Shown in pieces: positions 21,968 through 50,265 of a stretch of DNA of 64,000 nt (its first letter is position 1; the number at the start of each line of letters is the position of its first letter). The stretch covers positions 62,001-126,000 of the forward strand of contig NZ_WQNH01000006.1 of NCBI RefSeq assembly GCF_009812055.1, in the 5' to 3' direction. The stretch is from Chelativorans xinjiangensis (lineage in GTDB: Bacteria > Pseudomonadota > Alphaproteobacteria > Rhizobiales > Rhizobiaceae). Under the pieces are notes generated by a model. That model was not told the DNA's origin. It ran no database searches and saw nothing but the letters and a program-made list of their open reading frames with translations. A program made the translations under genes and the position numbers.

Positions 21968-22675
21968 ATGACGGCGGAACAGCCTGGAATGCGGGAGATG
22001 AGCGCCCCGTGGAGCGGTGACCCCGCCCTACGCCTGGCTAGGTTGCGCCCCGATCTGTTCGACCTTCTGTTCGGTGAATGCCGGCCCGAACGATACAGCG
22101 CCGGCGCGCATCTCTTCATGCAGGAGGACGTGGCCGACCGCATTTACGGCGTGTTGTCGGGCACGGTGGAGATTTCGATCTACTCTCCAGGCGGGCGCAA
22201 GCTCGTTGCCAATATCGAATTGTCGCGAAGCCTCGTCGGCGAAATCGGGGTGCTCGATGGAGGCGCCCGCACGGCGAGCGCGCTTTGCCTGACCGATTGC
22301 ACGCTGGTTTCCCTCAACAGGGCGCAGCTTTTTGACAAGCTGGAGAAAAATGCCCCCCTCGCGCTGGCGGTGATAGAGCTTCTGTGCGCACGATTACGGT
22401 GGGTCAGCGGCGAGCGGAACGATCAGGCTTTGCTCAAGATAGAAGCCCGTCTCGCCAAACGGCTATTGTTCCTCTCCGGAATATTGGCCGACAAGGATGG
22501 CTGGATTCCAATTTCACAAGCCGAACTCGCCGCGTTTCTGGGGGCGACCCGGGAATCGATCAACAAGATGCTGAACGAATGGCGCAGTCGTTCGCTGATC
22601 ATAATAAGGCGCGGCGCGATCCGCGTGACGAATGCGGATGGCTTGCAGGAGATCGTCGATCTGGGAGATGCGTGA
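21968..22675 (+). CDS. Crp/Fnr family transcriptional regulator, CRP-like (cNMP-binding)
   Basis: The 235-aa protein has an N-terminal cyclic-nucleotide-binding domain. Its phosphate-binding cassette reads G-E-I-G-V-L-D-G-G-A-R-T-A-S-A (about residues 95-109), keeping the G-E and R-T/S contacts that CRP uses for cAMP. The dimer helix runs about 125-155, and the C-terminal winged helix-turn-helix has recognition helix T-R-E-S-I-N-K-M-L. Compared with E. coli CRP (R-E-T-V-G-R), R and E are kept and K replaces the last R, compatible with TGTGA half-sites. No FNR-type cysteine cluster is present. It is convergent with the P450-DyP gene, and a matching site lies at 26936-26951. The ribosome site is weak, and ATG 21989 or 21998 are alternative starts. 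Confidence 0.88.
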   Translation: MTAEQPGMREMSAPWSGDPALRLARLRPDLFDLLFGECRPERYSAGAHLFMQEDVADRIYGVLSGTVEISIYSPGGRKLVANIELSRSLVGEIGVLDGGARTASALCLTDCTLVSLNRAQLFDKLEKNAPLALAVIELLCARLRWVSGERNDQALLKIEARLAKRLLFLSGILADKDGWIPISQAELAAFLGATRESINKMLNEWRSRSLIIIRRGAIRVTNADGLQEIVDLGDA

Positions 22676-22697: not shown

Positions 22698-22728
22698 AGG
22701 CCAGTTCATCGATTCCATGAACTGGCCT
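22698..22728. terminator. Strong 12-bp-stem hairpin between convergent genes
   Basis: AGGCCAGTTCAT (22698-22709) and ATGAACTGGCCT (22717-22728) form a perfect 12-bp stem with a 7-base loop. It lies between the Crp-family stop (22675) and the P450-DyP stop codon, overlapping the latter by two bases. There is no long T run on either side, but the position fits a bidirectional terminator. Confidence 0.65.
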
Positions 22729-25700
22729 AAAGCCTCGAAAGCAGATAGCGCAGGCTTGACCGGCTCGGCATGAAGAAATAACCGCCGCCGCGCGTGGTGA
22801 CGAATTCGGGCAGGCCAGTCAGCACCAGTGAGCCGTCGCTGGAAGGGATCGTGAAACGCCCCTCCCCGCCATTGGCTCCTATCGTCGGGTCCTTCTCCGC
22901 CAGGAGCCCGTGGAAGGTGGTGGCCGAGACCCAGCTTTGCTGCATGAACTCATATTGGCGCTCGATGTCGGCGTTGAGACACATGAAGAGCAGTCCCTTT
23001 TCGCTCCCCCTCTCGTACGAGCGCCCGCAGCGCAGGATGCGGTGGCGATTGTTGAGCCTGATCTGAGTCTCCCTGTCGTCCCCCAGCGAATCCCGCGGAT
23101 TGGAACGTCTCACATGCGAGCCGAACGGGCAGCGCAGCCCCAGCGGGTCTTCCGCGGCGTAGGAGAAGTCGTTGTCCGGCTTGCGTGCCTTGCGGCCGTT
23201 CGGGTTGCGGACCAGCGACGTTCCATCGGGCCAGCGACCGACCATTTTTGCGGAGATCCAGCGCGCATTGATGGCGGGATTGCCGGTCTGCGAACGCGCC
23301 ATGGTTGCGGCTTTCCTGCAGTACGCGTGGAACGTCTCGACATGCTGTTCGAGCTGGCGCACGACGACGAAGGAGCCGTTCCTGCCGAAGTCCCGCAACT
23401 GTGACTTTGCCCCGAAGAGAGGTTGATGCTCGCTCTCTACCGCCGGCAGTGCACCGCAGCTGTCGCGTGATGAAGGCACCGTCGGGGTCAGCGGATAAAA
23501 ACCGCTTTCGTCCTTGTAGCCCAGGAGGAATTCGCCGGGCGCCACCAGGTGCATGGACGGGACCGGCGCATTGGCGCGCCGGGTGCCCGTCACAACGGGC
23601 TGCGAAATCCCATCCGCGAAGCCGAAATGCTCGACCGCCTGTTTCCCTTGCCTTTTTGTCATGAGCGGCAGCTGCGTGACGATCGTCATCCCTGCCTTTT
23701 CCGTGCGCTCATGCAATTCCCGGATGTCGTCCGAGAGCGTCTCCTCATCGGCCGCGTAGCATATGACCACCGCGTCCACCGGCTTTTCCGCCGATCCCCA
23801 CTCCCAATGTTCCGGCGCACTGCGGCCGACGTCGTCGAGTATGCGGCTCCTCGGCTCTATACCCATACCCTGGCGGAACACCGCCGGGAAAGTCTTAAGC
23901 CCGCTCTCGGGCGAATGATCGTCGAGGCCGAGGCGCGCCAGCCCGTTCGGTCCGAACATGACTGCCATAGCCCGCTTGCCGGGAAGCCGGTTGCCGAAGC
24001 TGGTTCTCTCCGCCATGAAACGCAACCAGGCCTTCCGCTTCGCGCACGCAAGGCCCTCGGAAATGCGGACTGCCGTCATGCGTGCATGCTGCAGCGGCCC
24101 GAGGGGGCCGAAGAAGATCGTCTGTATCTCCTCCGTTTCCAGCGTGCCGTACGGGCGCGGCTGGGAACCGAAAAGCCGAAGCCAATCACGCGCCTCGCTC
24201 TCTGTCTCGGCCTTCGCAATGCCACTCCTTATGAGCGAGTTGATACGGATGCGGTTCGTGTTGAGGTCGGGATAGGCCGAATACCAGAAGAGGGTCGGTA
24301 TCTGTTGCGCCCGCGCCCATCGCTTGAAGCGGGCGCCGTCTCCTGCGCCTTCCAGGAAAAGGGAACGGGTCCTGGGAAAGCCCAGCGTATTGCTCCAGAC
24401 TCCCGTCAAACCGGCGCGCGCCTTGGCGATGAAGTCTTCGAGATAGCTTTCCCAGCTGCCTCCGTAGTTGCTGAAGAACACCAGCCTGTCCGTGCCGGGC
24501 AAAAGCACCCAGCGCGCAAAGTGGATTGTGTTGATGTCGGCGAGGAAGCCGGGCCGGAAAACCTGCCGAGCCATGATGGAGATAAAATAGAAGGAAAGGC
24601 GCAGCGCCAGCCGCCGCAGCCAGCCAGGCTTCATGACCGAGACGGCGGTCAGGTGGTTCTGTGGAAAATGGTTCTCCCGCCTTATAATCTCGGCCAGCGT
24701 TTCCGGATCCGGCTGAGCGTCGCTAGGCACGTCCCGCTTCTCAAGCCGCCGTAGCGCGAGATGGAGGAGCAGTCCGATGAAGGCCAGAGACATGCTGACC
24801 CCCAAGAGGCTGAGCACGAGCGACGTCCCGGAGACCAGAAGATTGCGGAAGATGCCGGGCGTGTATCCGAAAACGAGGGTGTAGGTGATCCCCCAGCACA
24901 CAAGAAGCACGATCGCGGCCGTGACCAACAGCCTGGGCGATCGAAGCGTTCTCTTGATGGCCGCCCAAAGACTTCCCTCCGGCATTTCCAGAAGGCTTTG
25001 CACCGGTTCGAACGCCCATTCGTAGCTGCCGTCCCGCGCCAGCCTTTCCCGCACCTCGGCAAGTACGTCGCCGGCGGCGTTCGCCTGCGCTTCGGCTATG
25101 ATCTCACGCGCCGCGTTCTGCAGCTTCGCCTCCGCACGGATGCGGGCGACCGAATAGCCGGGCGTGCCGGAAAATACGAGGCCCGCATTGCTGCCGAAGG
25201 TCGGGGAGATTTTGATCATTCGCGCGAGCATGAAATCCTCGAGGGACTCTTCGGCGCCAAGCCCGCATGCGTCTTCCAAAAGATCACGAACCAGGGAGCC
25301 GGGGTGTTCGGCAAAAGCCCGGGTCACGGCCTCGTCCGCGCCGTCGCCCGAAAGTTCGAGCACGAGATATGTCCGTTCGCCGTTTCCTGGGGCGCTCGGA
25401 GCGCAGACGACAGCGAGGCTCGCGAAGTGGATGATGCCGCTTGCATCCAGCGCCGCCGTGGCCCGTTCGTTGGCCGGGTTGCCGAGCTTGTCGACCTCTT
25501 TCCGCAATCTTTCGGCTTCTGTGCCTTCGTTGCACTCGAACACGACCGTGACCATCGAATGCTCTACCGCTTTCGAAAGCGGCGAAGGCTCGAAGGCGAT
25601 CCTCAGGCTCTCCGGATAGGCACCGAGCCGCGAAAGGTGGCCGGCCTTGCCCTTGGCTCGCCGCACGCCCGGTTTTGAGAAGATCGCGCGGAAGCACTCG

Positions 25701-26884
25701 GCGATCTGGACGCGGGCGATCGCCGCGCCGATGCATTGGTGAATGCCGTGACCGAAAACGAGATAGTCGCGCGCCGGCCGTTCGATGTCGAACACGTTTG
25801 GATTGGCCACGGCGTCCGGATCGAACATCGCCGACAACACAGCCGGCATGACGGAGGTTCCGGCCTTGACTGTGCGCTCCCGGCGCGTGCCCCTGGCGAT
25901 CACCGCGTCGCGGGCGGTGTAGCGAAAAGGCCCGATCCAGATCGGCTTGAACCGCATCGCCTCCAGGATCACCCGCTCGAGGCGTGTATTGTCCTTCGCG
26001 GCGACAGCCTCCTCGACCGCCTTGCGCGCATCGTCGCGCGAAAGCACGACGTCAAGGCAGTTGCTGCCGGCGAGCAGGTTAGTCGGCGCGAAGCCGGCTA
26101 TCATGCCCATCATGATGGAATGGACATCCCCGACACCGACGTCGGAACCGGCGTCGTCGAGCAGATCGACAAGCCGGCCAAGCGGCGTCGACCGGCTGGT
26201 CGTGCCGTCCCTGACCGCTTCTACGGACAGGTCGATCGTCCTTTTCATCCTGTCCGCGGCGACGACGGCAAGCTCACGCGCGATCGGGTTGGCGAGGGGG
26301 TCGGCAAAGAACAAACCGCTCAGCGCGTTCGCCCAGTCGGAGAATTGCTTCTCGTCGTCGATCCTGATGCCGAAATAGTCGCGGCAGATGCGCACCGGCA
26401 CCACCTTCAAGAGCTTGCCCACCACGTCGAAATCGGGAGCCGCCCGCCGCATGATCTCCTGGGCGTGCCGGGCCGCCAGCGGCCTCACCACCTGCTCCAC
26501 TTCGTCCACGGGAAAGGCGCTCAGGATGGTGGACTTCATGTGCCGGTATTGCGGGCCGTCCTGCATTCCGAGGATGAAGTTGTGCCCGCCGGCGATTTCC
26601 GTCATCTCCAGGCCGTAAGGCGTCTGGAACACATCCTGCCGTTCGAGGACTTCGCGGACGTCCGCGTTCCTCGTCACCAGAAGGAACTTGCCGAAACGCG
26701 GCATCGGCCAAAAACGCCTAAGCAGCGCGAGGGCCCAGCGCGGGTCTTCCAGAAGCCGCTTCGCCAGGCGTGCCCACATGCCTCTGGTGCGCAGGCGCTC
26801 CATGTCGAACGGAGGCATCTCGGCAAGGGGCCGCTGCTCCTTTTGCGCTTCGAGAACCCCTCCATAGTACTTGACAGCCACCAT
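22727..26884 (-). CDS. Fusion protein: cytochrome P450 + membrane hairpin + DyP-type heme peroxidase
   Basis: The 1385-aa protein contains two heme enzymes. Residues about 50-435 are a cytochrome P450: ExxR at E308-R311 and the heme-thiolate motif F-G-H-G-I-H-Q-C-I-G with Cys384. The I-helix reads A-G-F-A-P-T-N (263-269) and lacks the usual acid-alcohol pair. Residues 444-640 hold an alpha/beta domain (with I-H-F-A near 485). Two hydrophobic helices (about 652-675 and 681-710) follow, then a second copy of the same domain (I-H-F-A-R-W at 787-792). A DyP peroxidase makes up about 960-1385: G-F-A-D-G at 1088-1092, proximal His1257 in G-S-H-V-R-R-S-N-P-R, and N-R-H-R-I-L-R near 1279-1285. Both catalytic halves should face the cytoplasm. 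The frame is continuous, so the fusion is not an artefact of a visible frameshift. A CRP-like box lies 51 bp upstream. The substrate is unknown. Confidence 0.9.
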   Translation of the reverse strand: MVAVKYYGGVLEAQKEQRPLAEMPPFDMERLRTRGMWARLAKRLLEDPRWALALLRRFWPMPRFGKFLLVTRNADVREVLERQDVFQTPYGLEMTEIAGGHNFILGMQDGPQYRHMKSTILSAFPVDEVEQVVRPLAARHAQEIMRRAAPDFDVVGKLLKVVPVRICRDYFGIRIDDEKQFSDWANALSGLFFADPLANPIARELAVVAADRMKRTIDLSVEAVRDGTTSRSTPLGRLVDLLDDAGSDVGVGDVHSIMMGMIAGFAPTNLLAGSNCLDVVLSRDDARKAVEEAVAAKDNTRLERVILEAMRFKPIWIGPFRYTARDAVIARGTRRERTVKAGTSVMPAVLSAMFDPDAVANPNVFDIERPARDYLVFGHGIHQCIGAAIARVQIAECFRAIFSKPGVRRAKGKAGHLSRLGAYPESLRIAFEPSPLSKAVEHSMVTVVFECNEGTEAERLRKEVDKLGNPANERATAALDASGIIHFASLAVVCAPSAPGNGERTYLVLELSGDGADEAVTRAFAEHPGSLVRDLLEDACGLGAEESLEDFMLARMIKISPTFGSNAGLVFSGTPGYSVARIRAEAKLQNAAREIIAEAQANAAGDVLAEVRERLARDGSYEWAFEPVQSLLEMPEGSLWAAIKRTLRSPRLLVTAAIVLLVCWGITYTLVFGYTPGIFRNLLVSGTSLVLSLLGVSMSLAFIGLLLHLALRRLEKRDVPSDAQPDPETLAEIIRRENHFPQNHLTAVSVMKPGWLRRLALRLSFYFISIMARQVFRPGFLADINTIHFARWVLLPGTDRLVFFSNYGGSWESYLEDFIAKARAGLTGVWSNTLGFPRTRSLFLEGAGDGARFKRWARAQQIPTLFWYSAYPDLNTNRIRINSLIRSGIAKAETESEARDWLRLFGSQPRPYGTLETEEIQTIFFGPLGPLQHARMTAVRISEGLACAKRKAWLRFMAERTSFGNRLPGKRAMAVMFGPNGLARLGLDDHSPESGLKTFPAVFRQGMGIEPRSRILDDVGRSAPEHWEWGSAEKPVDAVVICYAADEETLSDDIRELHERTEKAGMTIVTQLPLMTKRQGKQAVEHFGFADGISQPVVTGTRRANAPVPSMHLVAPGEFLLGYKDESGFYPLTPTVPSSRDSCGALPAVESEHQPLFGAKSQLRDFGRNGSFVVVRQLEQHVETFHAYCRKAATMARSQTGNPAINARWISAKMVGRWPDGTSLVRNPNGRKARKPDNDFSYAAEDPLGLRCPFGSHVRRSNPRDSLGDDRETQIRLNNRHRILRCGRSYERGSEKGLLFMCLNADIERQYEFMQQSWVSATTFHGLLAEKDPTIGANGGEGRFTIPSSDGSLVLTGLPEFVTTRGGGYFFMPSRSSLRYLLSRL

Positions 26885-26966: not shown

Positions 26967-28712
26967 TCATGCCAACTCAAAATTGCTTATGAGAGCGGCC
27001 TTCGCGGATGCGTCGGCGAACGGGATCCATTCGATGCGCTCGTTCGTGAAGTCGGGGTGCCGTGTCCGGAAAATTGAAAGCTCTCGCCGGGCGTCATCGA
27101 GGCGCCTGCTGCGTGCGAGCGCGCCGATCTTCAGGAAGCGTGCATAGAAATAGCCGGGGGAAAGACTGAGCGAGCGGTCCGCGGTTTTGATCGCCTCGTC
27201 CCACTGGGAGGTAAGGCAATAAGCGGCGGTCAGTTCGCCGAGATTGTGGAACGCATAGATGTCGAAGGGGCTCAGTCGCGACGCCGCCTGGAAAAGCGGG
27301 ATCGCCTCCTCCGCCTGGCCGAGAAGAAGATGCGCGCTCCCCATGGCCGAGTGGGCAAAAGCGAAACTGGGATTTATCTCGAGCGCCTCGCTCAGATGTT
27401 CGAGAGCCATCTTCGGCTGGCCGCGCATGATCGCGACGACGCCAAGATAGGCGTGCGGACGCGCATCCTGGCTGTCCATCAGCAGCGACCTGCGCGAATA
27501 CTCCACGACCTTGTCGAGATCGTCGCTGTCGCCCGAACGCAGCCAGGCACGCCAGAAATACCACCACGCGAACTCGTTGAGCACGGCGCTCGAATTGGGA
27601 TCTTTCGCCTGTGCCTGCCCAAAGCACTCGAACGCCAGGGCCATGTCCTCGCGGCTGCGGCGCTGCATGTGCCAGCGGCCGCGCCTGACGAGTTGCCATG
27701 TCTCCAGGCTCTCCCACGGAACCTGGAACGTGCGCGCCTGCTCGGCCCGCTCCACCTCCTTCTCCAGCATCGAGACGATCATGCCGCCGATCTCGTCGTG
27801 AAGCAGGGCCACCTCATCCGCCCGGCGCTTGAACTCCCTCGACCAGATCAGCCGTCCGTTCGCCGCGTCGGTGAGCGTGACCTTTAGGACGAAATATGTG
27901 TTCGCCCGGGTGAGCCTGCCGTCGACGATGTAGCGCGCGCCCAGCGCACTGCCGATCATCCGCGTGCCGAGCGATTTGCCACGGAACTGAAAGCTGGAGC
28001 TCTTGGCGATAACGGGGAGCCACCGGGTGTTGGAAAGGCCCTGAATGACATCCTCCGCAATGCCGTCCGCAACGTAGTCGAGTTCGCGGTCTCCGCTCTC
28101 GTTGTGAAACGGCAGAACGGCAACGGCCGGCGGCATGGCTGCAGAAGCCTCTTGCCGGCGAGGCAGGAGCAATTCGGCGCCTCTGCCGTCCTGGGTCGCC
28201 ATGAATATGCGCACGGGCAGCGCTATGTTCTTCAGGATCTGTTCGCCCAGGTCCGTGAAATGGGCGGCCGTCTTGTCCTTCACGTGATGCCAGGTGGTCT
28301 CGGAGATCGCCAGCCCGTCATAGGGCGCAAGTTCCTGAATCCGGGCGGCGATGTTGACGTCGTCGCCGTAAAGGCTTTCGTCGCGGACGATCACGCTCCC
28401 GGTATTGATGCCCACGCGGAAAGGCATGCGCATCTCGTCGGTGACGGACGCGTTCAATGCCGCGATCTTCTCCTGAAAATCGAAAGCCGCCCTCATGGCA
28501 TCGATCGGCGCCCCGAATTCGGCCATGAGGCTATCGCCTGCTGCGCCGAACATCCGCCCGCCCCCAGCATCGCAACTCTCTACAATGATCGCCCGCCGCG
28601 TCTCGAAAGCCGTTACAGCAAATTCGTCATTGATGCCCATCAGGCGTGAAAAGCCGGCGGCATCAATAGAAACGATGGTTGCGACATGACGGGTATACAG
28701 CCGTCCAGTCAT
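26967..28712 (-). CDS. Class III adenylate/guanylate cyclase with TolB-like and TPR domains
   Basis: The 581-aa protein starts with a class III nucleotidyl cyclase domain (about residues 10-180). Metal-binding Asp17 and Asp60 (A-G-D-S-L-M-A-E-F) are present, as are the transition-state Asn120 and Arg124 (D-D-V-N-I-A-A-R-I-Q). A TolB/FlgO-like segment follows at about 193-320 (V-A-V-L-P-F-H-N-E-S-G-D), then TPR repeats at about 390-560. There is no transmembrane segment, so it is cytosolic. This layout is common among the many rhizobial cyclases. It lies upstream of P450-DyP on the same strand, and a Crp-family gene lies beyond, so the cNMP it makes may control the module. cAMP rather than cGMP is assumed. 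Confidence 0.88.
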   Translation of the reverse strand: MTGRLYTRHVATIVSIDAAGFSRLMGINDEFAVTAFETRRAIIVESCDAGGGRMFGAAGDSLMAEFGAPIDAMRAAFDFQEKIAALNASVTDEMRMPFRVGINTGSVIVRDESLYGDDVNIAARIQELAPYDGLAISETTWHHVKDKTAAHFTDLGEQILKNIALPVRIFMATQDGRGAELLLPRRQEASAAMPPAVAVLPFHNESGDRELDYVADGIAEDVIQGLSNTRWLPVIAKSSSFQFRGKSLGTRMIGSALGARYIVDGRLTRANTYFVLKVTLTDAANGRLIWSREFKRRADEVALLHDEIGGMIVSMLEKEVERAEQARTFQVPWESLETWQLVRRGRWHMQRRSREDMALAFECFGQAQAKDPNSSAVLNEFAWWYFWRAWLRSGDSDDLDKVVEYSRRSLLMDSQDARPHAYLGVVAIMRGQPKMALEHLSEALEINPSFAFAHSAMGSAHLLLGQAEEAIPLFQAASRLSPFDIYAFHNLGELTAAYCLTSQWDEAIKTADRSLSLSPGYFYARFLKIGALARSRRLDDARRELSIFRTRHPDFTNERIEWIPFADASAKAALISNFELA

Positions 28713-31809: not shown

Positions 31810-33135
31810 CTACGTTTCTCGGTCATTCTCCGCTTCTATCGCCAAGCGTTTCAAGGCAAACCGCGCGCCGCGCCCATGGATCACATCTTGGTGATCGGGT
31901 GTCTTCGAAGCCTTCGGCCGAACATTCGCGGGGCCTGCGGCATCCGTCTGGCAGGTCATTTTCCGCATCTTCTGGACAAGCAGTGCCACCGCCTGCCTGG
32001 CCTGCCCAAGATTCCTGCCATGCGCTTCCGTGTCGATGCCCTCATCCATTGCCTTCAAGACAAGCCTGCCGATCGCCTGCGGCGCGACATCCCCCTGAAC
32101 AAAGAAGTCCTCGCGGCCGACGGATCTGAAAAAGCTCTCCACCTTGCGGTCCCAGCCGAGTCCTATTTGCGGCGTACCCAGCGAATAGGAGACGATGCAG
32201 GCATGCAGCCGATGCGCGACAACGGCGGCAGGCTGCCGTAAAATGCCGACGAGATCGGTCGGTGCGCGCGGAGGAGCCGCCGCCACGAGCCGCCCCGTCG
32301 CCAGGTGCGCGGCGCAAGCAGGGTTTCGCAGAACGCGCTCGAGAAGCCGCTGGTCCTCGCTGGCCCCATTGGTGAAAAGCAGGACCTTGCAGCCGGCATT
32401 GATCAGCCACTCAGCCAGTTGCCGGTATTCGTCCACCGACAGAAGTGGAATCTGTGCGTCGGCGATGGCTGCATGCCGCCGCAGGACGAGCGGATGCGTG
32501 ACGCACACGCCGATGAGCGGGCGGTCGGCCGCAGGTTCCGCTTCTCCAGTCCGTGGCAGGTCGCATGCCAGCAGGCCAGGATCGGGGCAGACTTCCACAT
32601 CGTGTCGATGGCCGAAATGGGCGATCCAGTTGTCCCGCGCGGCACGGTCGCGAACCGACACGTGAAAGACCCGGCAGTCGCGCAGCCTGCCGAAAAGCTT
32701 TGCCGCGCGGTCCGACCAGTGGGCGGTGACGCCGACGGCAAAGACGGCGAGCGGTCGCTTGCCGCGACATGCGCACTCCAGCACTGCCGCAATCTTGAGG
32801 GGGAAGTTCAGGTCGTCGTCCTGGAAGAGATTGCCGCCGCCGATCACCACCGCATCCGCCATCTCGACGCGAGCCTGCCACCCACCGCGCAAACCCCGCA
32901 ACCTGCGCCCGAGCGCGAACGCAACCGCCGCCCTACGCAGGCGCGGCGGCAACAACCCCAGTATCGCGAGCGCCCCCATGCGGCCGCCTCCCGCGTCCCC
33001 GTAGGCACAGCGGCCGGCGAGATCGATCGTCTCGACCTCGATATCGTTCCGCCGCAGCGCGCTCTCGAGGCACTCGGCCAGAATACCGTCACCGAGGTTG
33101 GGGCTGTATTTGACGTTGAAGACCAAAATTTTCAA
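31810..33135 (-). CDS. Polysaccharide pyruvyl transferase family protein
   Basis: The 441-aa protein shows the pyruvyltransferase fold: N-terminal N-V-K-Y-S-P-N-L-G-D-G-I-L, V-V-I-G-G-G-N-L-F-Q-D near residue 97, F-A-V-G-V near 131, C-P-D-P-G near 183 and H-R-L-H-A near 310, which is the conserved late His motif. It would add a pyruvate ketal to a sugar of the exopolysaccharide repeat from phosphoenolpyruvate. The ATG overlaps the stop of the upstream polymerase gene by 4 bp. A divergent 45-residue tail without clear homology follows about residue 395. Confidence 0.88.
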   Translation of the reverse strand: MKILVFNVKYSPNLGDGILAECLESALRRNDIEVETIDLAGRCAYGDAGGGRMGALAILGLLPPRLRRAAVAFALGRRLRGLRGGWQARVEMADAVVIGGGNLFQDDDLNFPLKIAAVLECACRGKRPLAVFAVGVTAHWSDRAAKLFGRLRDCRVFHVSVRDRAARDNWIAHFGHRHDVEVCPDPGLLACDLPRTGEAEPAADRPLIGVCVTHPLVLRRHAAIADAQIPLLSVDEYRQLAEWLINAGCKVLLFTNGASEDQRLLERVLRNPACAAHLATGRLVAAAPPRAPTDLVGILRQPAAVVAHRLHACIVSYSLGTPQIGLGWDRKVESFFRSVGREDFFVQGDVAPQAIGRLVLKAMDEGIDTEAHGRNLGQARQAVALLVQKMRKMTCQTDAAGPANVRPKASKTPDHQDVIHGRGARFALKRLAIEAENDRET

Positions 33136-35887: not shown

Positions 35888-37831
35888 ATGAACAGCAATG
35901 AAGGGCGGGCGGAATTCTTTAATGGACGCGTAACGGCGGCGCGCCCCGCTTTTCAGGTGCGAAACAGCTACGAGCGCCGGCGCAGCATTCATGATCTCGT
36001 GAGCGAGCAGGCATCGCTGCGGCCGTACGCAATAGCCGTCCAGTTCGGCAGCACCCGCCACACCTACGCCGAGCTCGACCGTCGGTCCTCCGCGCTCGCC
36101 GGCGAGCTGATGCGGCTGGGCGTGGCGAAGGGCGACGTCGTCGGCCTCTTTTTGCCACGTGGGCTCAACACGATAACCGCCAAGCTGGCGATCCTGAAAG
36201 CCGGTGCGGCCTACGCTCCCTTCGACCCGTCCTATCCCGCCGAGCACCTCGACTACATGATCGGCGATTGCGATCCCAAGCTTATCCTGGTCGACACGGA
36301 GAGCGCCGGGGCGATCCGCGCGATTGCGACCGCCAGCGCCGTGTTCGACCTCGACCGCCTTCTGGAAAGCGCAGGAGAAGGCCCGCCTCAAGACCTGCCC
36401 GATGTCTCAGGCGGCGACGCTGCCTATGTCATGTACACCTCCGGCTCGACCGGCCGGCCGAAAGGTGTCGTCATTCCCCACCGCGGCATTGCCCGCCTCG
36501 TGCGTGACCAGAACTACATTCGTTTCGAGCCCGACGACGTCGTCCTGCACACTGCAACGATCTCCTTCGACGCGGCGACCTTCGAGATCTGGGGCGCGCT
36601 GCTCAACGGCTGCACACTGCTGGGAATAGGCGACCGCACGCTGTCGCTGCCGCGCATCGCCCAGGCCATCGACGACAATCGTGTCACCGTCATGCTGCTG
36701 ACGACGGGCCTTTTCCACTTGCTGGTCGATCATCGCGGTAGCCGGCTTGCCTCTTTGAGGCATGTGCTGTTCGGCGGCGAGGTCGCCTCGGCGGGTCACG
36801 CCAAGCGGTTCCTGCGAAACAACCCCGACTGCATCCTCACCAATGCCTACGGCCCCACGGAAGTGACCGTCATGGCGTCGGCCTACACCATATCGCCGGA
36901 TTTCGAAGGCGATGAGATTCCGATCGGACGCAGCATCGCCCACAGCCGCGTCCACATCCTCGACGGCGATCTCCGTGAGCTGCCGCCGGGTTCGGAGGGA
37001 CAGCTAGCGGTGTCGGGCGACGGCCTGGCGATCGGCTATCTCAACCGGCCCGACCTCACGCGCGAGCGCTTCGTCACCATCCATACCGCCGAAGGAACCT
37101 CCATGCGCTGCTACCTCACCGGCGATCTCGCCATGGTGGACAGCGAAGGGATCCTGCACTTTAGGGGACGCCTGGACCGGCAGATCAAAATCGACGGGAA
37201 GCGTATAGAGCTCGACGAGATCGAGGCTGCGCTGCGCCGGGATGCACGCCTTGCCGATGCCGTGGCCGTCTGCCATGAGAACAGCGCCGGCACCAAGCGG
37301 ATTGTCGCCTATCTGCGGCCTCACCCCCCGATGACTGTGAGCGAAGCCGATTTCGCGGCGGCAATCCTCTCGACATTAAAGACGGTGCTGCCTTCGCACA
37401 TGATCCCGAGCCGCGCCGTGGTGCTCGACCGGTTCCCCATGAATCAAGCCGGCAAGATCGACCGCTCCCAGCTCCCGCCTCCCCCGCCCGAATCGGCCGT
37501 GTCAACCGCACCGCCGCCGTCGGCCGGCGAAACCGAAGCGCTGCTGACGAAGCTCTGGGAGCAGGTGCTCGGCAGGACGGGCGTCGGCATGGACCAGAAC
37601 TTCTTCGATCTCGGTGGCACCTCCATGCAGCTCATCCGCGTACACGCCGCGCTGGAGGGAGCCCTCGGACGTTCGATCGACGTCGTGGCGGTCTTCCAGC
37701 ATCCCAACATCCGCAGCCTGGCACGCCATCTCGACAATGGCGGGCCAGATGCGGCGCCCGCCACCTCCGTCCAAGCGCGGGCGGACTTGAGAAAAAGAAC
37801 GATGTCCCAGTTCCGCCGGAGCGCCTCATGA
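35888..37831 (+). CDS. NRPS loading module: adenylation domain and peptidyl carrier protein
   Basis: The 647-aa A-PCP protein has no condensation domain and thus looks like the starter module. A-domain core motifs are Y-T-S-G-S-T-G-R-P-K-G (183-193), N-A-Y-G-P-T-E (319-325), Y-L-T-G-D (409-413), G-R-L-D-R-Q-I-K (427-434) and N-Q-A-G-K-I-D-R with catalytic Lys523. The carrier Ser579 sits in L-G-G-T-S-M. Aligned by eye to the Phe-activating domain of GrsA, the ten specificity residues read D-A-F-L-L-G-A-V-M-K. Asp at the first position indicates an alpha-amino acid, and the rest suggest a hydrophobic side chain; the exact amino acid is uncertain. GGAGGTGGGG precedes ATG 35888. The stop overlaps the next gene by ATGA. 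Confidence 0.92.
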   Translation: MNSNEGRAEFFNGRVTAARPAFQVRNSYERRRSIHDLVSEQASLRPYAIAVQFGSTRHTYAELDRRSSALAGELMRLGVAKGDVVGLFLPRGLNTITAKLAILKAGAAYAPFDPSYPAEHLDYMIGDCDPKLILVDTESAGAIRAIATASAVFDLDRLLESAGEGPPQDLPDVSGGDAAYVMYTSGSTGRPKGVVIPHRGIARLVRDQNYIRFEPDDVVLHTATISFDAATFEIWGALLNGCTLLGIGDRTLSLPRIAQAIDDNRVTVMLLTTGLFHLLVDHRGSRLASLRHVLFGGEVASAGHAKRFLRNNPDCILTNAYGPTEVTVMASAYTISPDFEGDEIPIGRSIAHSRVHILDGDLRELPPGSEGQLAVSGDGLAIGYLNRPDLTRERFVTIHTAEGTSMRCYLTGDLAMVDSEGILHFRGRLDRQIKIDGKRIELDEIEAALRRDARLADAVAVCHENSAGTKRIVAYLRPHPPMTVSEADFAAAILSTLKTVLPSHMIPSRAVVLDRFPMNQAGKIDRSQLPPPPPESAVSTAPPPSAGETEALLTKLWEQVLGRTGVGMDQNFFDLGGTSMQLIRVHAALEGALGRSIDVVAVFQHPNIRSLARHLDNGGPDAAPATSVQARADLRKRTMSQFRRSAS

Positions 37832-40800
37832 ACGAAACATCACCTCAAGCGGAAGCCCTCGCCGGCGAAGGCATAGGCAGCGTGGCGATCATCGGCATGT
37901 CCGGCCGCTTCCCCGGCGCGCCCTCCATCGATGCACTTTGGGAGCTCATCGCGCAGGGCAGACATGCATTCGCGCATTTCCCGCCCGAAGAGATCGAGGA
38001 CGCCTTCGGCGACGACGTTCGCACTGCCAAGGACTACGTGCCGGCGAGACCCCATCTCGACGATGTGGAGCTGTTCGACGCCGAGTTTTTCGGCATGTAT
38101 CCGCGCGAGGCCGCCCTCCTCGACCCGCAGTTTCGCGTCTTCACGGAGATCTGCTGGGAGGCCATCGAAGGCGCTGGCTACGACCCCTATGCCTGTCCTG
38201 GACAGGTGGGTGTCTTCGCCGGTTCCGCGCTTGCCACCTATCTCATCAACAATGTGCTGTCTGACCGCGAAAAAGCCGAGGCCTTCACCTCGAACTACCA
38301 GATCGGCATGTTCTCCGAGCTGATCGGCTCGATCAACGACACGCTCGCCACACGCGTCGCTTACAAGCTCAATCTGCGCGGCCCCGCCTTCACCATCCAG
38401 TCTGCCTGCTCGACGTCACTCCTGGCGGTCGCGCAGGCCTGCCAGAACCTCCTGACCTATGGCTGCGACATGGCGCTGGCCGGCGGTGTGTCGATCACCT
38501 TCCCGCAGAAGCGCGGCTACATCTATCAGGAAGGCGGCATGGCCTCCCCGGATGGCTTCTGCCGTCCCTTCGATGCCGATGCGGCCGGCACCGTCTTCGG
38601 CAGCGGCGCCGGCGTGGTGCTCCTGAAGCGCCTCGACGACGCGATGCGCGACGGTGACCACATCCACGCGGTCATCCTCGGCTACGGCGTCAACAACGAC
38701 GGATCCGACAAGGTCGGCTACACCGCGCCGAGCGTGGCGGGCCAGGCCGAAGCCATCGCCACGGCATATGCCAGCGCCGGCATCGCCCCTTCCACCATCG
38801 GCTATGTCGAGTGCCACGGCACCGCCACGCCGCTGGGCGACCCGATCGAGTTCGCCGGCCTGAGGAAGGCGTTCGGCGACGTCTCCACCAGATCGACCTG
38901 CGCTCTCGGCTCGGTAAAGGGCAATTTCGGCCATCTGGACGCGGCCGCCGGCGTGGCGGGGCTCATCAAGGCAGCTTTGGTGCTGCGCAGCGCCAAGATC
39001 CCGCCCATGGCGAATTTCTCCACGCCCAATCCGCGCATCGATCTCGACGACAGCCCTTTCTACATTCCGCGGGCGCTCTGTGAGTGGCCGGCAGATGGCC
39101 CGCGGCGGCGGGCGGGCGTCAGTTCCTTCGGCGTAGGCGGCACGAATGTGCACCTTGTCCTGGAAGAGGCGCCGCCCGCTCCTTCACCTGGAGAAGAAGG
39201 CGGAAAAGCAAATTACATCATACCTTTGTCGGCGCGAAGTGAAGAATCGCTCGCAGCCATGCGCCGCAACCTGGCCGAGGCGCTCCGCCGCAATCCAGGC
39301 ATCTCGCTTCCCGCCGCCGCCTACACGCTTCAAAACGGCCGGCACCATTTTGCCCATCGCACGGCGGTAATCGCTGCAAACGTGGAAGAAGCCGCCGCCG
39401 GCCTGGAGAACGAACGTCCGCTCGCCGGCACAGCGGAGGAAACCCCTCCGCCAGTCATCTTCATGTTCCCCGGCCAGGGCGCCCAATATGTCGGCATGGG
39501 CGGCGCCCTCTATGACAGCGAGCCCGAATTCGCCCGCTGGATCGATCACGGCGCCGGCCTTCTGGAAGCGCGGACCGGCATCGACCTGCGCAAATTCATC
39601 TGCCACGCGGGCGATCCCACCGACGAGATGTCGGCTGCCCTGCGCGATACGAAGATCGCCCAGCCGGCGCTCTATCTCATCGAATACGCGACGGCGCGCC
39701 TGTGGATGAGCCGCGGGCTCGTGCCTGCCGCGATGATCGGCCACAGCGTCGGCGAGTTCGTCGCCGCCACACTCGCCAACGTCATGTCCTTCGACGACGG
39801 ACTGCTTCTGGTGGCCAATCGAGGCCGGCTGATGCAGAAACAGCCGCAAGGCGCGATGGTCTCCGTCCGCGCCGAGGCCGACACGGTGCGTGCCCACCTC
39901 GACGAGGGCGTGGAGATCGCCGCGGTCAACGCGCCCAGGCTCTGCGTCATCTCAGGCACGTTCGAGGCCGTGGATGCCGCCTGCGCGCGGCTGCAGGAGG
40001 CCGACATCGCCTTCAGCCGCCTGCACACCTCGCACGCCTTCCATTCGGCCATGATGGACAAGGCGGCGGCAGCCCTGCGCAAGGAGACGGGCAGGCTCGC
40101 CTACGGCACGGCTACAATTCCCTACGTTTCCTGCACCACCGGCGACTGGCAGACCGATGCTCTTGGCACCTCGCCCGACTACTGGGCGCAACACTGCCGT
40201 GACGCCGTCCGCTTCGCCGACGGCCTTGCCACTGCCTGCCGCGACAGAAGGCCGGTCCTGCTGGAGGTCGGCCCCGGCCGAACGCTGTCCGTCTTCGCCG
40301 CGCAGACCATCAATCGCGGCGATCTGGCGGCGGTCGTCCAGTCACTGCCCGAGCATGACCGGGCGTCCGCCGCCCCCGCCACCTTCGCCGAGGCACATGC
40401 GCGGCTGTGGATTTCCGGCTGCGACCTCGACTGGCCGCAACTGCCGACGTCCGCCCAGCGGCGCCTTCCCCTGCCGACCTACGCCTTCCAGCGCCAGAAA
40501 CACTGGATAGAGGCTCCGCGGCCACACCGGCAAGTCTCCATCACGGCAGAGGCCACCGCACCGCAGGCCAACGCGCCGCAACCGGCACCCGAATACGGAA
40601 ACGATACCATGAACGCTGTCACGCAAGTTCCCTCCGAAAACAGGATCGAGAGGCTGGAAACGGCACTGCTTGCCCTTCTGGCTGAGATGTCGGGCGAGGA
40701 GCTGGCCGCCGACGCTATCGGCGCGACGTTCCTGGAACTCGGATTCGATTCCCTCTTCATCGGCCAGTTCGCGCAAAAGATCGAGAAGCAGTACAAGGTG

Positions 40801-43800
40801 AAGCTCTCCTTCCGCGAGCTTCTGAGCAGCATCCCGACCGTCAGCGCCCTCGCACGGCATCTCGACGCCGAGCTCCCGCCCGACGCGCTGCAGCCGGCCA
40901 CCGCCCCGGCGGCGCAGGCCCCTGTTCCTGCAATCCAGGCGCCGATGGTGCCGACGACAACGCCCTCCACATCGGCGGTGGGCGGTTTGGACGGGCTGTT
41001 CCAGTCGCAGCTTCAGATGATGCAGCAGCTTTTCGCCCAGCAATTGCAGGCGGCCCAGGCGTTGGGCGCTACCGTACCGTCGCCGTCCCCGACGCCACAG
41101 CAGACGAGCCCGCAGTCGACCATCTTCGCCAAGCCTCCCGCAACCGAAGAGGCCAAACCCGCCGAAGCGGAGACCGGCTCCGGGCGCCCGCGCCTCTATA
41201 GGCCCGGCATGCGCATCAGCGAGGGCGAACTGACGCCCCAAAAGCGTGAGTTCATCGCCGAGCTGGCGGAACGCTACGCCGCGAAAAACGCCAAGTCCAA
41301 GGCCTTCACCGATGCCAACCGCCGCCGCCTGGCGGACCCGCGCGCAGCCTCCGGCTTCCGCGCGGAGTGGAAGGAGATCGTCTTCCCTGTCGTTTCCGAC
41401 CGCTCCAAGGGCTCGCGCATCTGGGACATCGACGGCAACGAATATATCGACCTCGTCAACGGCATGGGCCAGACGGCCTTCGGCCATGCGCCCGACTTTG
41501 TCGTCAAGGCGATGATCGACCAGGTGAACAGCGGCTTCGCCATCGGCCCGCAGACGCCGCTTGCCGGAGAGGTGGCCGAACTCATCGGAGAGATGACCGG
41601 TCACGAGCGCGTGACCTTCTGCAACACCGGCTCGGAGGCCGTGATGGCTGCCATGCGGGTCGCCAGAACCGTCACGGGCCGGGAAAAGGTGGTCGTCTTC
41701 GGTAATGATTACCACGGCCAGTTCGACGAAGTTCTGGTGAAGGGCCGCAGCCGCTCGGGCGCGCCCACAGCACTGCCGATCGCCGCCGGCATCCCGCCGA
41801 CCTCGCTTTCCAACATGACGGTGCTCACCTACGGCGCGCCCGAAAGCCTCGACTGGATCCGCGCCAACGCCGAAGACATCGCGGCCGTCATCATCGAGCC
41901 CGTGCAAAGCCGCCACCCGGAGCTGCGCCCGGTCGAGTTCGTCCGGGAACTGCGCCGGATCGCCACCGAAGGCGAATTCGCTCTGGTCTTCGACGAGGTC
42001 GTCACCGGCTTCCGCGTCCATCCGGGCGGCATGCAGGCCGTCTGGGGCATCCGAGGCGACATGGCGACCTACGGCAAGGTGCTGGGCGGCGGCATGCCCA
42101 TCGGCGTCCTTGCCGGCGACAGCCGCTTCATGGATGCCCTCGACGGCGGCCACTGGGCCTATGGGGACGATTCCGTTCCCATGGTGGCGCCCACCTTCTT
42201 CGCCGGCACCTTCGTGCGCCACCCGGTCACGCTGGCGGCGGCCAAGGCGGTTCTGCAGCACATCAAGGGCGAAGGCCAGGCGCTTTACGGCCGGGTCGCC
42301 GACCGCACGCAACTGCTCGTGGAAGAGCTGAACGCGGACCTTGCCCGCCGCGGTATCGCCGGCACGGTCAACGGCTATGCAAGCTGGTTCGTGACGGACT
42401 TCGGCAGCCTCGATCCTCTCGGCGCGCTGTTCTACCCGCACACACGCATGCAGGGCATCCATGTGCAGGACGGCTATCCCTGCTTCCTCACGACCGTCCA
42501 TACGGAGGAGGATTTCCAGCGCATATCCGACGTCTTCCGCAATAGCCTCGATGCTCTCCAGGCTGCCGGCATCCTGGCGCCTTCCGAGGGGAAAACACTG
42601 ACCGCGGCCTCCATGCCGACGGCTGGAGAGACCGTGACATCGGCCGAGCTCACCGAAGCGCAGAAGGAAATCTGGCTCGCCGCCCAGGCGGGCGACGAAG
42701 CCTCCTGCTCCTTCAATGAATCCTTCAACCTCACCCTTGAAGGCATTCTGAACAAAGAGGCTTTCCGCCGCGCGCTCGACTTGGTTGCCGAACGCCACGA
42801 TGCCCTTCACATCCGTTTCTCGCGCGCGGGCGACCGGTTGGAGATCATCCCTGATTTCCGGATCGGCATGAAATTCAAAGATTGCGCCGAGGATCCGGAT
42901 CCCGAGGCCGCGCTTGAAGAGGTCGTCGCAGAGGAGGCCTACACGCCCTTCGACCTTGTGGCCGGGCCCCTTGCCCGCACGCAGCTCGTGCGCCTTGCCG
43001 CCGACCGGCACGTGCTCGTCTTCACCGCACACCACATCGTCTGCGACGGCTGGTCGACCAACGTCATCGTCGAGGAACTGGCCGCGGCCTATTCCGCGTT
43101 CGCGTCGAACCGCGAGCCCAACCTTCCGCCTGCGCTCTCCTTCGCCGCCTATGCGGGCAATCTCGCCAAGGTGGAGACGAACCCGGCGACGGAGGATTTT
43201 TGGCTAAAACAGTTCGAAACGATCCCGGAATTGGCCGAGCTGCCGACCGACCGGCCACGCCCGGAGCGCCGGACATTCGCGGGCGGCACCTGCACCGCGC
43301 ATATAGAAAAGGAGGCCTATAAGCGCCTCAAGAAGGCCGGCGCGAAGAACGGCGCCACCATGTTCTCGACGCTGCTCGCCGCGCTCCAGGTCATGATCGC
43401 GCGCCTTTCCGGCAGCACGGACATCGTCATCGCCGTACCGTCGGCGGGTCAAAGCCTGCTGGGCGACCAGACCCTGGTCGGCCATTGCGTCAACCTCCTG
43501 CCGCTGCGCCAGGCGGTCGATGCCGGCGTTTCGTTCGAGAAGCATCTGCGCGCGACGCAGCAAGGCGTCCTGCAAGCCTTCGAACATCAGGACTACACCT
43601 ACGGGACAATGGTCCGCAAACTCGGCCTGAAGCGCGACCCGAGCCGCCTGCCGCTCACGGAAATCCAGTTCAACCTGGAGCGCACGGCCAGGAACGCAGG
43701 ATTTGAAGGTCTATCGGCGCAGATCGCGCCGAACCCGAAAGCCTTCTCCAACTTCGACATGTTCCTCAACATGATCGAAAGCGAGGACGGCATCCGCATC

Positions 43801-48614: not shown

Positions 48615-48615
48615 C

Positions 48616-50265
48616 TTGCGCTTCAATGGCAAGGCCTATGTTCAGCCGGTCCTGGAGTGGACGGGCAAAAGCAACCGGCCTCCCCTTCGCATCGGCATCC
48701 TTGTCGGTAGCGAAGAGGGTTTCGAAAACTGGGAGCTGCAGCTTTTCGACCGGCTGTTTGCCGACCCGCGCTTTGATCTCAAGGCCGTGTTGATACACCC
48801 GGGCGGTTACGGCCAACACTGCACGACGCCCCTTTTCGACCTCGTCGCAAAGGTCGACCGCCTGCTGTTTGCTCGCCAGCCTGCCTATCGTCCGAGTTAT
48901 TTCGAAGACATCCGCCGGCGGACCGAGTTCATCCACCTTGGCGAAGCGGGTTCTGGCCCCACGATCGGATCGCCGGCCCTGGAAGACCTGCGCCTCGATC
49001 TTGTCCTCCGCACGGTCCCCCGGGGGCTCCCAGACGCCTTCGTCGCCACGCTCCCATACGGAGAATGGGCGTTGACGTTCGCCGATCTTAAATCCCGTAC
49101 CGCGGACTGGTGCAGCTTTGCCGAGGTCAGCGCCGGTGCGCCAACGGTGCAAATAGGGCTCAACGTCAATCATGGCGGAGGAGGCCCCGTTGAACAAATC
49201 GCCTCGGCCGCCTTCAACCCAAAATTCAGCGCGGCCAGAAATTCGGCTTTCCTTAAGGAAAAGGCCGTGATCCTGCTCATGAGAGAGCTGCGGCGGCTGG
49301 CCGATACCGGAAGCCTCACATCTGGGCACGACACGGCTTCGGCTCGGCCCGCCGGCCCGCCAGGCACGGCAGAGGTCGCGCGCTATGCCCTCGGACTGGT
49401 ACGCGCGGCGGCCGCACGCGCGGCGAAGGAGCTACGGAGAAAAGCGGGCGTGGAGACGGCCGTCTGGACGCTCTATAGCGGCGCCGGCTCCGTCGAGCAT
49501 TTCGATCCGCATCTTGCCGTCGAACTTCCGCCCGCAAAAGACTCGATCAAGGCCGACCCCTTTCTCTTCAGGCATGGCGACGACTTTTATGTCTTCTACG
49601 AGAACTATGCGGTCGGCGACCGCAAAGCCCATATCGCCGTCGGCAGGCTGAGGGGCGATGGGATAGAGCCGCTCGGTCCGGCGATAGAGAGTGCCAGCCA
49701 CCTCTCCTTCCCCTTCGTATTCCGCAACGGCAAGGGCATTTTCATGATGCCGGAAACGCATCAGGAAAAACGCATCGAGATCTGGCGCTGCACCGGCTTT
49801 CCCTTGAAATGGGAGCTCTATGCAACCGCGCTCGACGGCTACTCGGCCGCCGACAGCACCCTTTTCCGGCACAAAGGCAAATGGTGGCTCCTGTCCAATC
49901 TGTCCGACCACCACGCATACGAGGATCATTGCAGCGAACTCCACGCATTCGAGGTCGACGGGCCCAAATTGTCGCGCATCGTCCCGCATGCGCGCAATCC
50001 TGTGGTCATCGGCAGCACCGTCGCGCGCAATGCCGGCAGGGTCTTCGCCCGCCATGGCCGCCTGTTCCGGCCGTCGCAGAACAACGCCTACGGCATTTAT
50101 GGCTATGGCCTCAATATCATGGAGATCCAGGAGCTGAGCCGCGAGGCCTATCGCGAGAGATGCATCAGGACGATCGTTCCCGACTTCAAGCCCGGCCTCG
50201 CCGGCTGCCACCATTTCGATGCCGCCGGCGGCCGCTACATCCTCGATGCGCGGTTGAACAGCTGA
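48616..50265 (+). CDS. Beta-propeller protein of the GINT1-N/GH43-like type, putative glycosyltransferase
   Basis: In this 549-aa two-part protein, residues about 20-225 resemble a formyltransferase/GT-like N-domain (R-I-G-I-L-V-G-S-E-E-G-F-E-N-W-E-L). Residues about 295-545 form a five-bladed-propeller-like domain with D-P-F-L-F, H-L-S-F-P-F-V-F, P-E-T, W-E-L-Y-A and A-D-S-T-L-F-R-H motifs. These resemble the N-terminal domain of plant glucosamine inositolphosphorylceramide transferase found in many bacterial polysaccharide loci. It starts one base after the NRPS stop with a TTG codon behind a G-rich ribosome site. The end overlaps the opposing PPTase gene by 31 bp. The exact reaction is unknown; sugar transfer to the peptide or the EPS is an inference. 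Confidence 0.75.
   Translation: MRFNGKAYVQPVLEWTGKSNRPPLRIGILVGSEEGFENWELQLFDRLFADPRFDLKAVLIHPGGYGQHCTTPLFDLVAKVDRLLFARQPAYRPSYFEDIRRRTEFIHLGEAGSGPTIGSPALEDLRLDLVLRTVPRGLPDAFVATLPYGEWALTFADLKSRTADWCSFAEVSAGAPTVQIGLNVNHGGGGPVEQIASAAFNPKFSAARNSAFLKEKAVILLMRELRRLADTGSLTSGHDTASARPAGPPGTAEVARYALGLVRAAAARAAKELRRKAGVETAVWTLYSGAGSVEHFDPHLAVELPPAKDSIKADPFLFRHGDDFYVFYENYAVGDRKAHIAVGRLRGDGIEPLGPAIESASHLSFPFVFRNGKGIFMMPETHQEKRIEIWRCTGFPLKWELYATALDGYSAADSTLFRHKGKWWLLSNLSDHHAYEDHCSELHAFEVDGPKLSRIVPHARNPVVIGSTVARNAGRVFARHGRLFRPSQNNAYGIYGYGLNIMEIQELSREAYRERCIRTIVPDFKPGLAGCHHFDAAGGRYILDARLNS

Follow-up and report, generated by a model that had tools for sequence, protein, structure and literature searches.

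A cytochrome P450 and a DyP-type peroxidase joined by a membrane repeat protein form a recurrent two-heme module in bacteria

We analysed a stretch of 64,000 nucleotides (hereafter the window) from Chelativorans xinjiangensis (contig NZ_WQNH01000006.1, positions 62,001 to 126,000), which carries a gene for a protein of 1385 amino acids that joins a cytochrome P450, a middle region and a DyP-type peroxidase in one chain (22730..26884, minus strand; stop codon at 22727-22729). The frame of 1385 codons opens with ATG and has no internal stop, and the opposite (plus) strand is interrupted by stops. All features of the fusion given below are likewise on the minus strand. A single-chain P450-DyP fusion had been proposed in a preliminary description of this DNA, and the frame, Cys384, ExxR, GxxDG and His1257 were all found where it had placed them. 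The P450 domain comprises residues 1-432 (25589..26884; Pfam p450, E = 2.3e-14), and profile searches match it to P450s in the PDB at up to E = 6e-39. It has the hallmarks of the superfamily, an FxxGxxxCxG cysteine loop at residues 377-386 and the ExxR motif as E308xxR311; the loop reads FGHGIHQCIG and contains the heme-thiolate ligand, Cys384 (25733..25735). The helix I motif, IAGFAPTN (residues 262-269; 26078..26101), contains Pro267, which lies in or next to the position of the acid-alcohol pair. The DyP-type peroxidase domain comprises residues 911-1385 (22730..24154; NCBIfam TIGR01413, E = 2.3e-29). The NCBIfam match to the DyP superfamily spans residues 1032-1377, Pfam DyP_perox_C is matched at E = 1.4e-4, and a Deinococcus DyP (PDB 8re3) is matched by sequence at E = 9.9e-42. 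The domain has the GxxDG motif (residues 1088-1092), His1257, Arg1285, which we take to be its catalytic arginine, and the DyP fold. P450 and DyP are the only Pfam domains in the fusion, and neither Pfam nor NCBIfam detects an FMN, FAD, NAD, ferredoxin or reductase domain in it.

The middle region (residues 441-910; 24155..25564) is a tandem-repeat membrane protein of 470 residues that is encoded by a separate gene in other bacteria. By hhalign, the first and second halves of this protein are homologous to each other (probability 95%, E = 2.6e-8), with repeat 1 at residues 441-590 (25115..25564) and repeat 2, which contains IHFARW...SNYxGSWESYLEDF, at residues 736-900 (24185..24679). The repeats flank a predicted transmembrane hairpin (residues ~650-717; 24734..24937), formed in the structural model by two long helices of hydrophobic sequence (model residues 210-232 and 238-277, that is ~650-672 and ~678-717 of the protein). 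The hairpin suggested in the preliminary description stands; the segment between the P450 and DyP is more than a hairpin, and the hairpin is part of a protein family in its own right. Structure prediction had been suggested for all domains; an AlphaFold2 model was made of residues 441-1385 (20 sequences; mean pLDDT 75, pTM 0.53). In this model each half of the middle protein has an element order of the beta-alpha-beta-beta-alpha-beta type, and the best PDB match of the whole, through its DyP part, is again 8re3 (Foldseek, E = 6e-23). Profile searches with the middle protein found no credible Pfam family or PDB relative. The top of 14 PDB matches, VPH2 (E = 0.005), was aligned on the long-helix region and was rejected as not credible. 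Comparison of the middle halves with both halves of DyP gave probabilities of 0.1-0.4%; since DyP's own two halves score 0.3% against each other, this profile test is blind to a remote kinship between the middle protein and DyP, and we claim neither kinship nor its absence. The middle protein represents an uncharacterised membrane family.

Recurrence of this domain order had been raised as a check on the fusion, and we found P450, middle protein and DyP in the same order in 22 further full-length sequences, which makes 23 with that of the window. A search for related loci returned 19, and 11 of them encode the whole protein with its parts in this order (L003-L007, L009-L012, L014, L017); the other full-length sequences are L025, L027, L104-L109 (six genomes from the scans with the middle protein described below) and three plasmid records checked with the same profiles. 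The genera include Chelativorans, Nitratireductor, Mesorhizobium, Pararhizobium, Novosphingobium and Sulfitobacter. The plasmid-borne fusions, from Pararhizobium qamdonense, Novosphingobium aromaticivorans (pNL2) and Sulfitobacter pontiacus, are publicly annotated as 'cytochrome P450' or 'Dyp-type peroxidase domain-containing protein'. That of S. pontiacus (L128:2781-7643) is 1620 amino acids long, and its DyP part (~939-1618), some 200 residues longer, is without the strict FGxxDG motif. By strict pattern, GxxDG is present in 46 and the histidine motif in 43 of 51 DyP rows.

Across 16 aligned rows (the window included; one partial, one split), P450 identity to the window ranges from 29 to 93%. 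A few loci have broken frames: TAG separates the P450 from middle-DyP in L026 and L052, a frame change does so in L071, and in L008, which is cut off by the start of its contig, the frame shifts within the P450 part. Such breaks would be expected if assembly or gene calling had joined neighbouring genes into an apparent fusion, an explanation to which we give almost no weight. The frame is continuous in 23 sequences, among them the window and RefSeq-annotated plasmids, and because the order across the junction is unbroken in relatives with as little as 29% P450 identity, as well as in the annotated plasmid records, the junction is not an assembly artefact. In a tree of 47 DyP rows, all 16 fused rows share one well-supported branch with the split L052 and L071 and with L013, which is truncated by a contig end, and the two split forms group with L013 within it; thus, splitting looks inherited. 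Another tree, built from 31 rows, places the middle-DyP protein of Rhizobium leguminosarum with L052 and L013. Given these groupings, a single fusion followed by fission or loss of the P450, and two separate fusions, both fit. Two other types of fusion were found, DyP-P450 in L077 and DyP-catalase-related in L111.

We scanned genomes with a profile of 12 middle-protein rows taken from loci known to carry a DyP alongside; no P450 or DyP sequence was used. Of 385 genomes from the class 10 gave a match, and of 398 from the phylum 23 did, the genome of the window being in both sets. A scan on the Bacteroidota side gave 1 of 198, which was the seed itself. The class and phylum scans yielded 28 other distinct genomes, which stand for fewer lineages since several are close kin. 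We searched the surroundings of all 28 with P450, middle, DyP and catalase-related profiles, defining proximity as within 6 kb. A DyP is close to the middle protein in every genome (28/28). A P450 is close in 18 of the 28, as against 0.41 expected, given how many P450 matches each genome has; six of these have P450-middle-DyP fusions, one the DyP-P450 fusion of L077, and the remainder neighbouring genes. The association also holds among genomes that have no P450-middle-DyP fusion (12 of 22, against 0.31 expected), and G167 and G530 each have a single P450 match, which lies next to the module. Outside the scans, a membrane gene, a DyP gene and a P450 gene stand in a row, unfused, in G059; this membrane gene is related to an extra small gene that lies in between, beside the middle gene, in L078, L079, L120 and L121 and has a relative in L051. 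The middle profile also matches shorter genes, the size of a single repeat, that adjoin DyP in L075-L079 and L116-L122, with three consecutive in L076. The two-heme module of P450 and DyP is real and recurrent.

P450 is not the only neighbour of the middle protein and DyP. Six of the 28 genomes have a catalase-related protein there instead, and the two were never found together within the stretches fetched; further catalase-related loci are L015, L016, L018, L019, L020 and L021 (Bacteroidota, Sulfuricella, Thiotrichales). These proteins have no credible Pfam match in the three examined and no NCBIfam match in the two examined. A profile of three sequences matched coral allene oxide synthase (AOS; 1u5u, E = 3.3e-5), its fusion with lipoxygenase (AOS-LOX; 3dy5, E = 5.9e-4) and a catalase-related protein of M. 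avium (3e4w, E = 0.009). One member, from Thiotrichales, was modelled with AlphaFold2 (6 sequences; pLDDT 65, pTM 0.69), and its top Foldseek match in the PDB was 1u5u (E = 8.9e-12), ahead of ordinary catalases. All 13 aligned sequences, which come from 12 loci (one of the two copies in L111 lies apart from the module), have the proximal tyrosine motif RxxxY; eight of them have a histidine in the distal place, preceded by Thr in three, Met in four and Ser in one. Coral AOS converts a fatty-acid hydroperoxide to an allene oxide, and structurally unrelated P450s of plants and fungi do likewise (PMC5617202, excerpts). The seat of the P450 can thus be filled by an unrelated protein that is kin to a known hydroperoxide enzyme. 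Such a swap would be evidence from nature that heme proteins of two unrelated folds serve one function.

The P450s themselves are unusual in helix I. A proline is found there in 30 of 34 partner P450s, many of them close kin, and in none of the 22 controls that could be read at helix I, out of 23 control P450s supplied by the same searches; the four plasmid-borne partner P450s likewise carry it. The preceding residue in the fused clade is Ala, Thr, Gly, Val or Ile. Profile alignment places the proline at the Thr of the acid-alcohol pair, with a register relative to P450cam that is uncertain by one residue. The acid of this O2-activating pair is missing in 32 of 34 partner P450s and retained in all 22 readable controls, and it is gone in both possible registers; since the alignments leave one residue of doubt, we claim only the loss of the acid and not the exact register of Pro267. 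CYP152 peroxygenases have Arg-Pro at the acid-alcohol place (PMC5818669, excerpts), and in the same helix the P450 halves of fungal 9S-AOS have (V/A)PxT and those of 9R-AOS TPxG (PMC13049297, excerpts). Judged by these sequence features, the chemistry of the partner P450s is likely to be peroxide-driven. If so, the fusion would be a self-contained catalyst of two-step oxidation that needs no reductase.

Alternatively, the P450 could be an ordinary monooxygenase that draws on the ferredoxin and reductase of the cell, with the peroxidase fused to it only to keep the two together for some catabolic or biosynthetic step. The HxC loop and ExxR are canonical, and because a Thr follows the proline (with the register uncertain by one residue), one hydroxyl of the proton relay may remain. 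Fer2 proteins occur in 19 of 19 genomes searched and, among the matches listed, lie near the module in two, ~3 kb from the fusion in G702 and ~5 kb from the P450 in G659; in the remaining 17 genomes none of the matches listed is within 6 kb of the module. We dropped an argument from the absence of a recurring redox-partner gene in clusters of neighbouring genes, which had a minimum of 120 amino acids per open reading frame and were mostly unannotated. An ordinary monooxygenase explains neither the missing acid in 32 of the 34 partner P450s nor the exchange of partners, and we regard it as improbable.

A stronger competitor is a tandem oxidation driven by hydrogen peroxide, in which a peroxygenase P450 and a peroxidase DyP act at the membrane, in sequence or on separate substrates, and no hydroperoxide is relayed. 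It accounts for the residue-Pro of helix I, as in CYP152, for the retention in most rows of the DyP residues for use of hydrogen peroxide, and for the lack of a fused redox partner. It leaves the replacement of the P450 by a catalase-related, AOS-like protein unexplained, and the carboxylate-binding Arg of CYP152 is missing here; on balance we think it somewhat unlikely. As to where a hydroperoxide might come from, lipoxygenase (PF00305) is absent from 38 of 39 genomes, including that of the window, and was rejected as the source; a hydroperoxide would have to be supplied by DyP, by some other enzyme or by the surroundings.

We propose, as the best explanation, a membrane-anchored two-heme peroxide relay in which DyP works with a peroxide-using P450 or its stand-in; we hold this tentatively, at a little less than an even chance. 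The middle protein would hold DyP at the membrane, where DyP would act on the shared substrate before the P450 or its stand-in. DyP would thereby form or activate a peroxide or radical, organic and most likely of a lipid, for the partner to rearrange. The P450 or its stand-in would open the O-O bond of the peroxide rather than activate O2 with NADPH, in the manner of CYP74-type P450s, the P450s fused to dioxygenases (DOX) in fungi, CYP152 and coral AOS. The preliminary description had suggested that a hydroperoxide passes between the two sites. The replacement of the P450 by an AOS-like protein and the loss of the acid in 32 of 34 speak for this idea. A lipid hydroperoxide relay is plausible, and we infer its substrate, the order of its steps and the oxylipin label; that the substrate is a fatty acid and that DyP makes the hydroperoxide, as a dioxygenase, is conjecture. 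A more specific version would make the module a third independent design of fused oxylipin synthase, with DyP as dioxygenase or radical initiator on membrane lipids, the hydroperoxide passed to a P450 in some lineages and to a coral-type catalase-related isomerase in others, so that two known solutions to one chemistry would be interchangeable, the middle protein as lipid-facing scaffold, and control by cyclic AMP. Taken as a whole, this version is unlikely. To our knowledge, the natural substrates of the widespread DyP peroxidases remain largely unknown. With a DyP joined to a P450 here and set next to an AOS-like protein in other bacteria, a definite, testable statement can be made on the pathway in which such a DyP works.

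Several observations weigh against a relay. Four of the 28 genomes (G312, G380, G776, G538) have neither a P450 nor a catalase-related neighbour, although in G538 only ~0.4 kb of contig is left beyond the middle gene, with a di-heme RoxA-like gene on the other side; the plasmid-borne middle-DyP of R. leguminosarum has neither type within the 12.6 kb examined. Of the 18 neighbouring P450s, those of L071, L077 and L115 score 97, 116 and 62 bits against the P450 profile of the module, in the range of control P450s (48-124); that of L115 is below the Pfam cut-off, and the genome of L071 has 44 P450 matches. L071 and L075 have Asp-Thr in helix I, and L077 and L114 have neither acid nor proline. With strict motifs incomplete among the 51 DyP rows, a few DyPs may be inactive. 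The match to the AOS fold has a modest TM-score (0.53/0.57) from a model of pLDDT 65, and since only 8 of 13 catalase-related sequences have the distal His, not all of them can be AOS-like. We also know of no DyP that makes fatty-acid hydroperoxides. Finally, the counts overstate independence because many rows are close kin and the scan profile was seeded from middle proteins adjacent to DyP.

Among known systems, the fungal Ppo or DOX-CYP enzymes (linoleate diol, epoxy alcohol and allene oxide synthases) also combine a heme peroxidase-type enzyme and a P450 in one chain. Their P450 keeps the HxC loop and, in 9-AOS members, has a residue-Pro pair in helix I, as here (PMC13049297, excerpts). 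In contrast to the fusion described here, their dioxygenase is of the peroxidase-cyclooxygenase type and N-terminal to the P450, whereas the DyP is C-terminal, and they have no membrane repeat protein between the two heme domains. CYP5619 fusions of oomycetes have the same order, an N-terminal P450 and a C-terminal heme peroxidase-type or dioxygenase domain; their partner domain is likened to that of PpoA, their CXG motif is degenerate whereas that of the window P450 is canonical, they are reported from oomycetes, and 'Dyp' is not mentioned in the text of that paper (PMC5919972, excerpts). Of the systems in print, the fungal DOX-CYP and CYP5619 fusions come nearest, with a partner from another peroxidase family. 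A relative of the catalase-like half of coral AOS-LOX (1u5u, 3dy5) fills the place of the P450 in the six genomes above, once fused to DyP; the partner in coral is a lipoxygenase, whereas here it is DyP with the middle protein, and the window protein has no PF00305 domain. CYP152 enzymes (P450 BSbeta, OleT) share the replacement of the acid-alcohol pair by residue-Pro and the lack of a fused reductase (PMC5818669, excerpts), but have an Arg before the proline that is missing from the window P450, which has a canonical Cys loop. Self-sufficient P450s (CYP102, CYP116) carry fused reductase domains, and the window fusion has none. The DyP agrees in sequence, fold and GxxDG, His and Arg motifs with those of Deinococcus (8re3) and Anabaena (AnaPX, 5c2i); solved DyPs are single-domain chains, whereas this one shares a membrane module with another heme enzyme. 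The preliminary description knew of no characterised example, and we likewise found no P450-DyP fusion or module described in the open-access papers searched on P450 and DyP, natural P450 fusions or Alphaproteobacterial P450s, and no paper on DyP together with allene oxide synthase; 'fusion', 'fused' and 'peroxidase' are all missing from the text of PMC8197338. The module resembles known hydroperoxide relays in architecture and is a member of none.

The fusion gene is flanked by two putative regulators. Directly upstream on the same strand, across a gap of 82 bp, lies a gene for a class III nucleotide cyclase-TPR protein (26967..28712, minus strand; Pfam Guanylate_cyc, E = 5.8e-7, and TPR), and tail to tail with the fusion lies a Crp/cyclic-nucleotide-binding regulator (21968..22675, plus strand; Pfam cNMP_binding, E = 2.3e-19). 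In 14 of the 16 loci examined, fused or split, the next gene upstream on the same strand encodes a related TPR regulator. A cyclase domain was confirmed in six of the nine of these that were scanned (L003, L005, L012, L052, L054, L106), and L053, L108 and L109 have TPR only. BLAST grouping places Crp-type relatives near 9 of 44 loci (one confirmed by Pfam), and the trio of cyclase, fusion and Crp is annotated in P. qamdonense. Beside the Novosphingobium fusion a SARP-type regulator is found in their stead, and a hypothetical protein is given in the Sulfitobacter record. This neighbourhood might indicate a signalling device, in which the heme domains sense peroxide, nitric oxide or carbon monoxide, or make a signal for the adjacent cyclase and Crp regulator. 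Such a device would explain the upstream TPR regulator, the Crp-type relatives and the Pararhizobium trio, but a cyclase is not seen beside most unfused modules and the catalytic motifs of the heme domains are conserved in most rows; we give it only a small chance. Within the proposed peroxide relay, expression or activity of the fused clade would be tied to cyclic-nucleotide signalling through the neighbouring cyclase and Crp-type regulator; against a general role of this kind, the cyclase is mostly confined to the fused clade, with relatives also by L114, L115 and L015.

Other genes accompany the middle protein and DyP in some genomes. In G538 (L116:6388-10137) the pair lies near the di-heme RoxA-like gene (NCBIfam CytoC_perox, 443 bits), which is possibly a third kind of partner. 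RoxA-like di-heme oxygenases were rejected as general companions: 17 of 39 genomes have matches (E <= 0.001), and only in G538 (L116) is one above the cut-off beside the module; a sub-threshold match in G400 is ~5 kb from it. In G776, away from the module, a catalase-related gene is directly followed on the minus strand by a RoxA-like protein with two CxxCH heme motifs (L123:5389-8274). RoxA has kin in Pseudomonas that act as fatty-acid dioxygenases (PMC4496055), so this pair may be a separate hydroperoxide pathway. An endonuclease/exonuclease/phosphatase-family gene lies downstream of middle and DyP on the R. leguminosarum plasmid (L127:4740-8909) and in L073 (8376-12999), which have no P450 or catalase type, and in L020 (10179-11096), which has the catalase type; the genes around the Rhizobium locus include those for a protein with a CHAT domain and for a restriction system of the DpnII type. 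In the window itself, a gene for a polysaccharide pyruvyl transferase (31810-33135, minus strand) lies near a hybrid polyketide synthase-nonribosomal peptide synthetase cluster (35888-50265, plus strand), which encodes an adenylation-carrier protein, a 2665-amino-acid ketosynthase-acyltransferase-aminotransferase-condensation-adenylation protein, a condensation-thioesterase protein and a GINT1-like protein.

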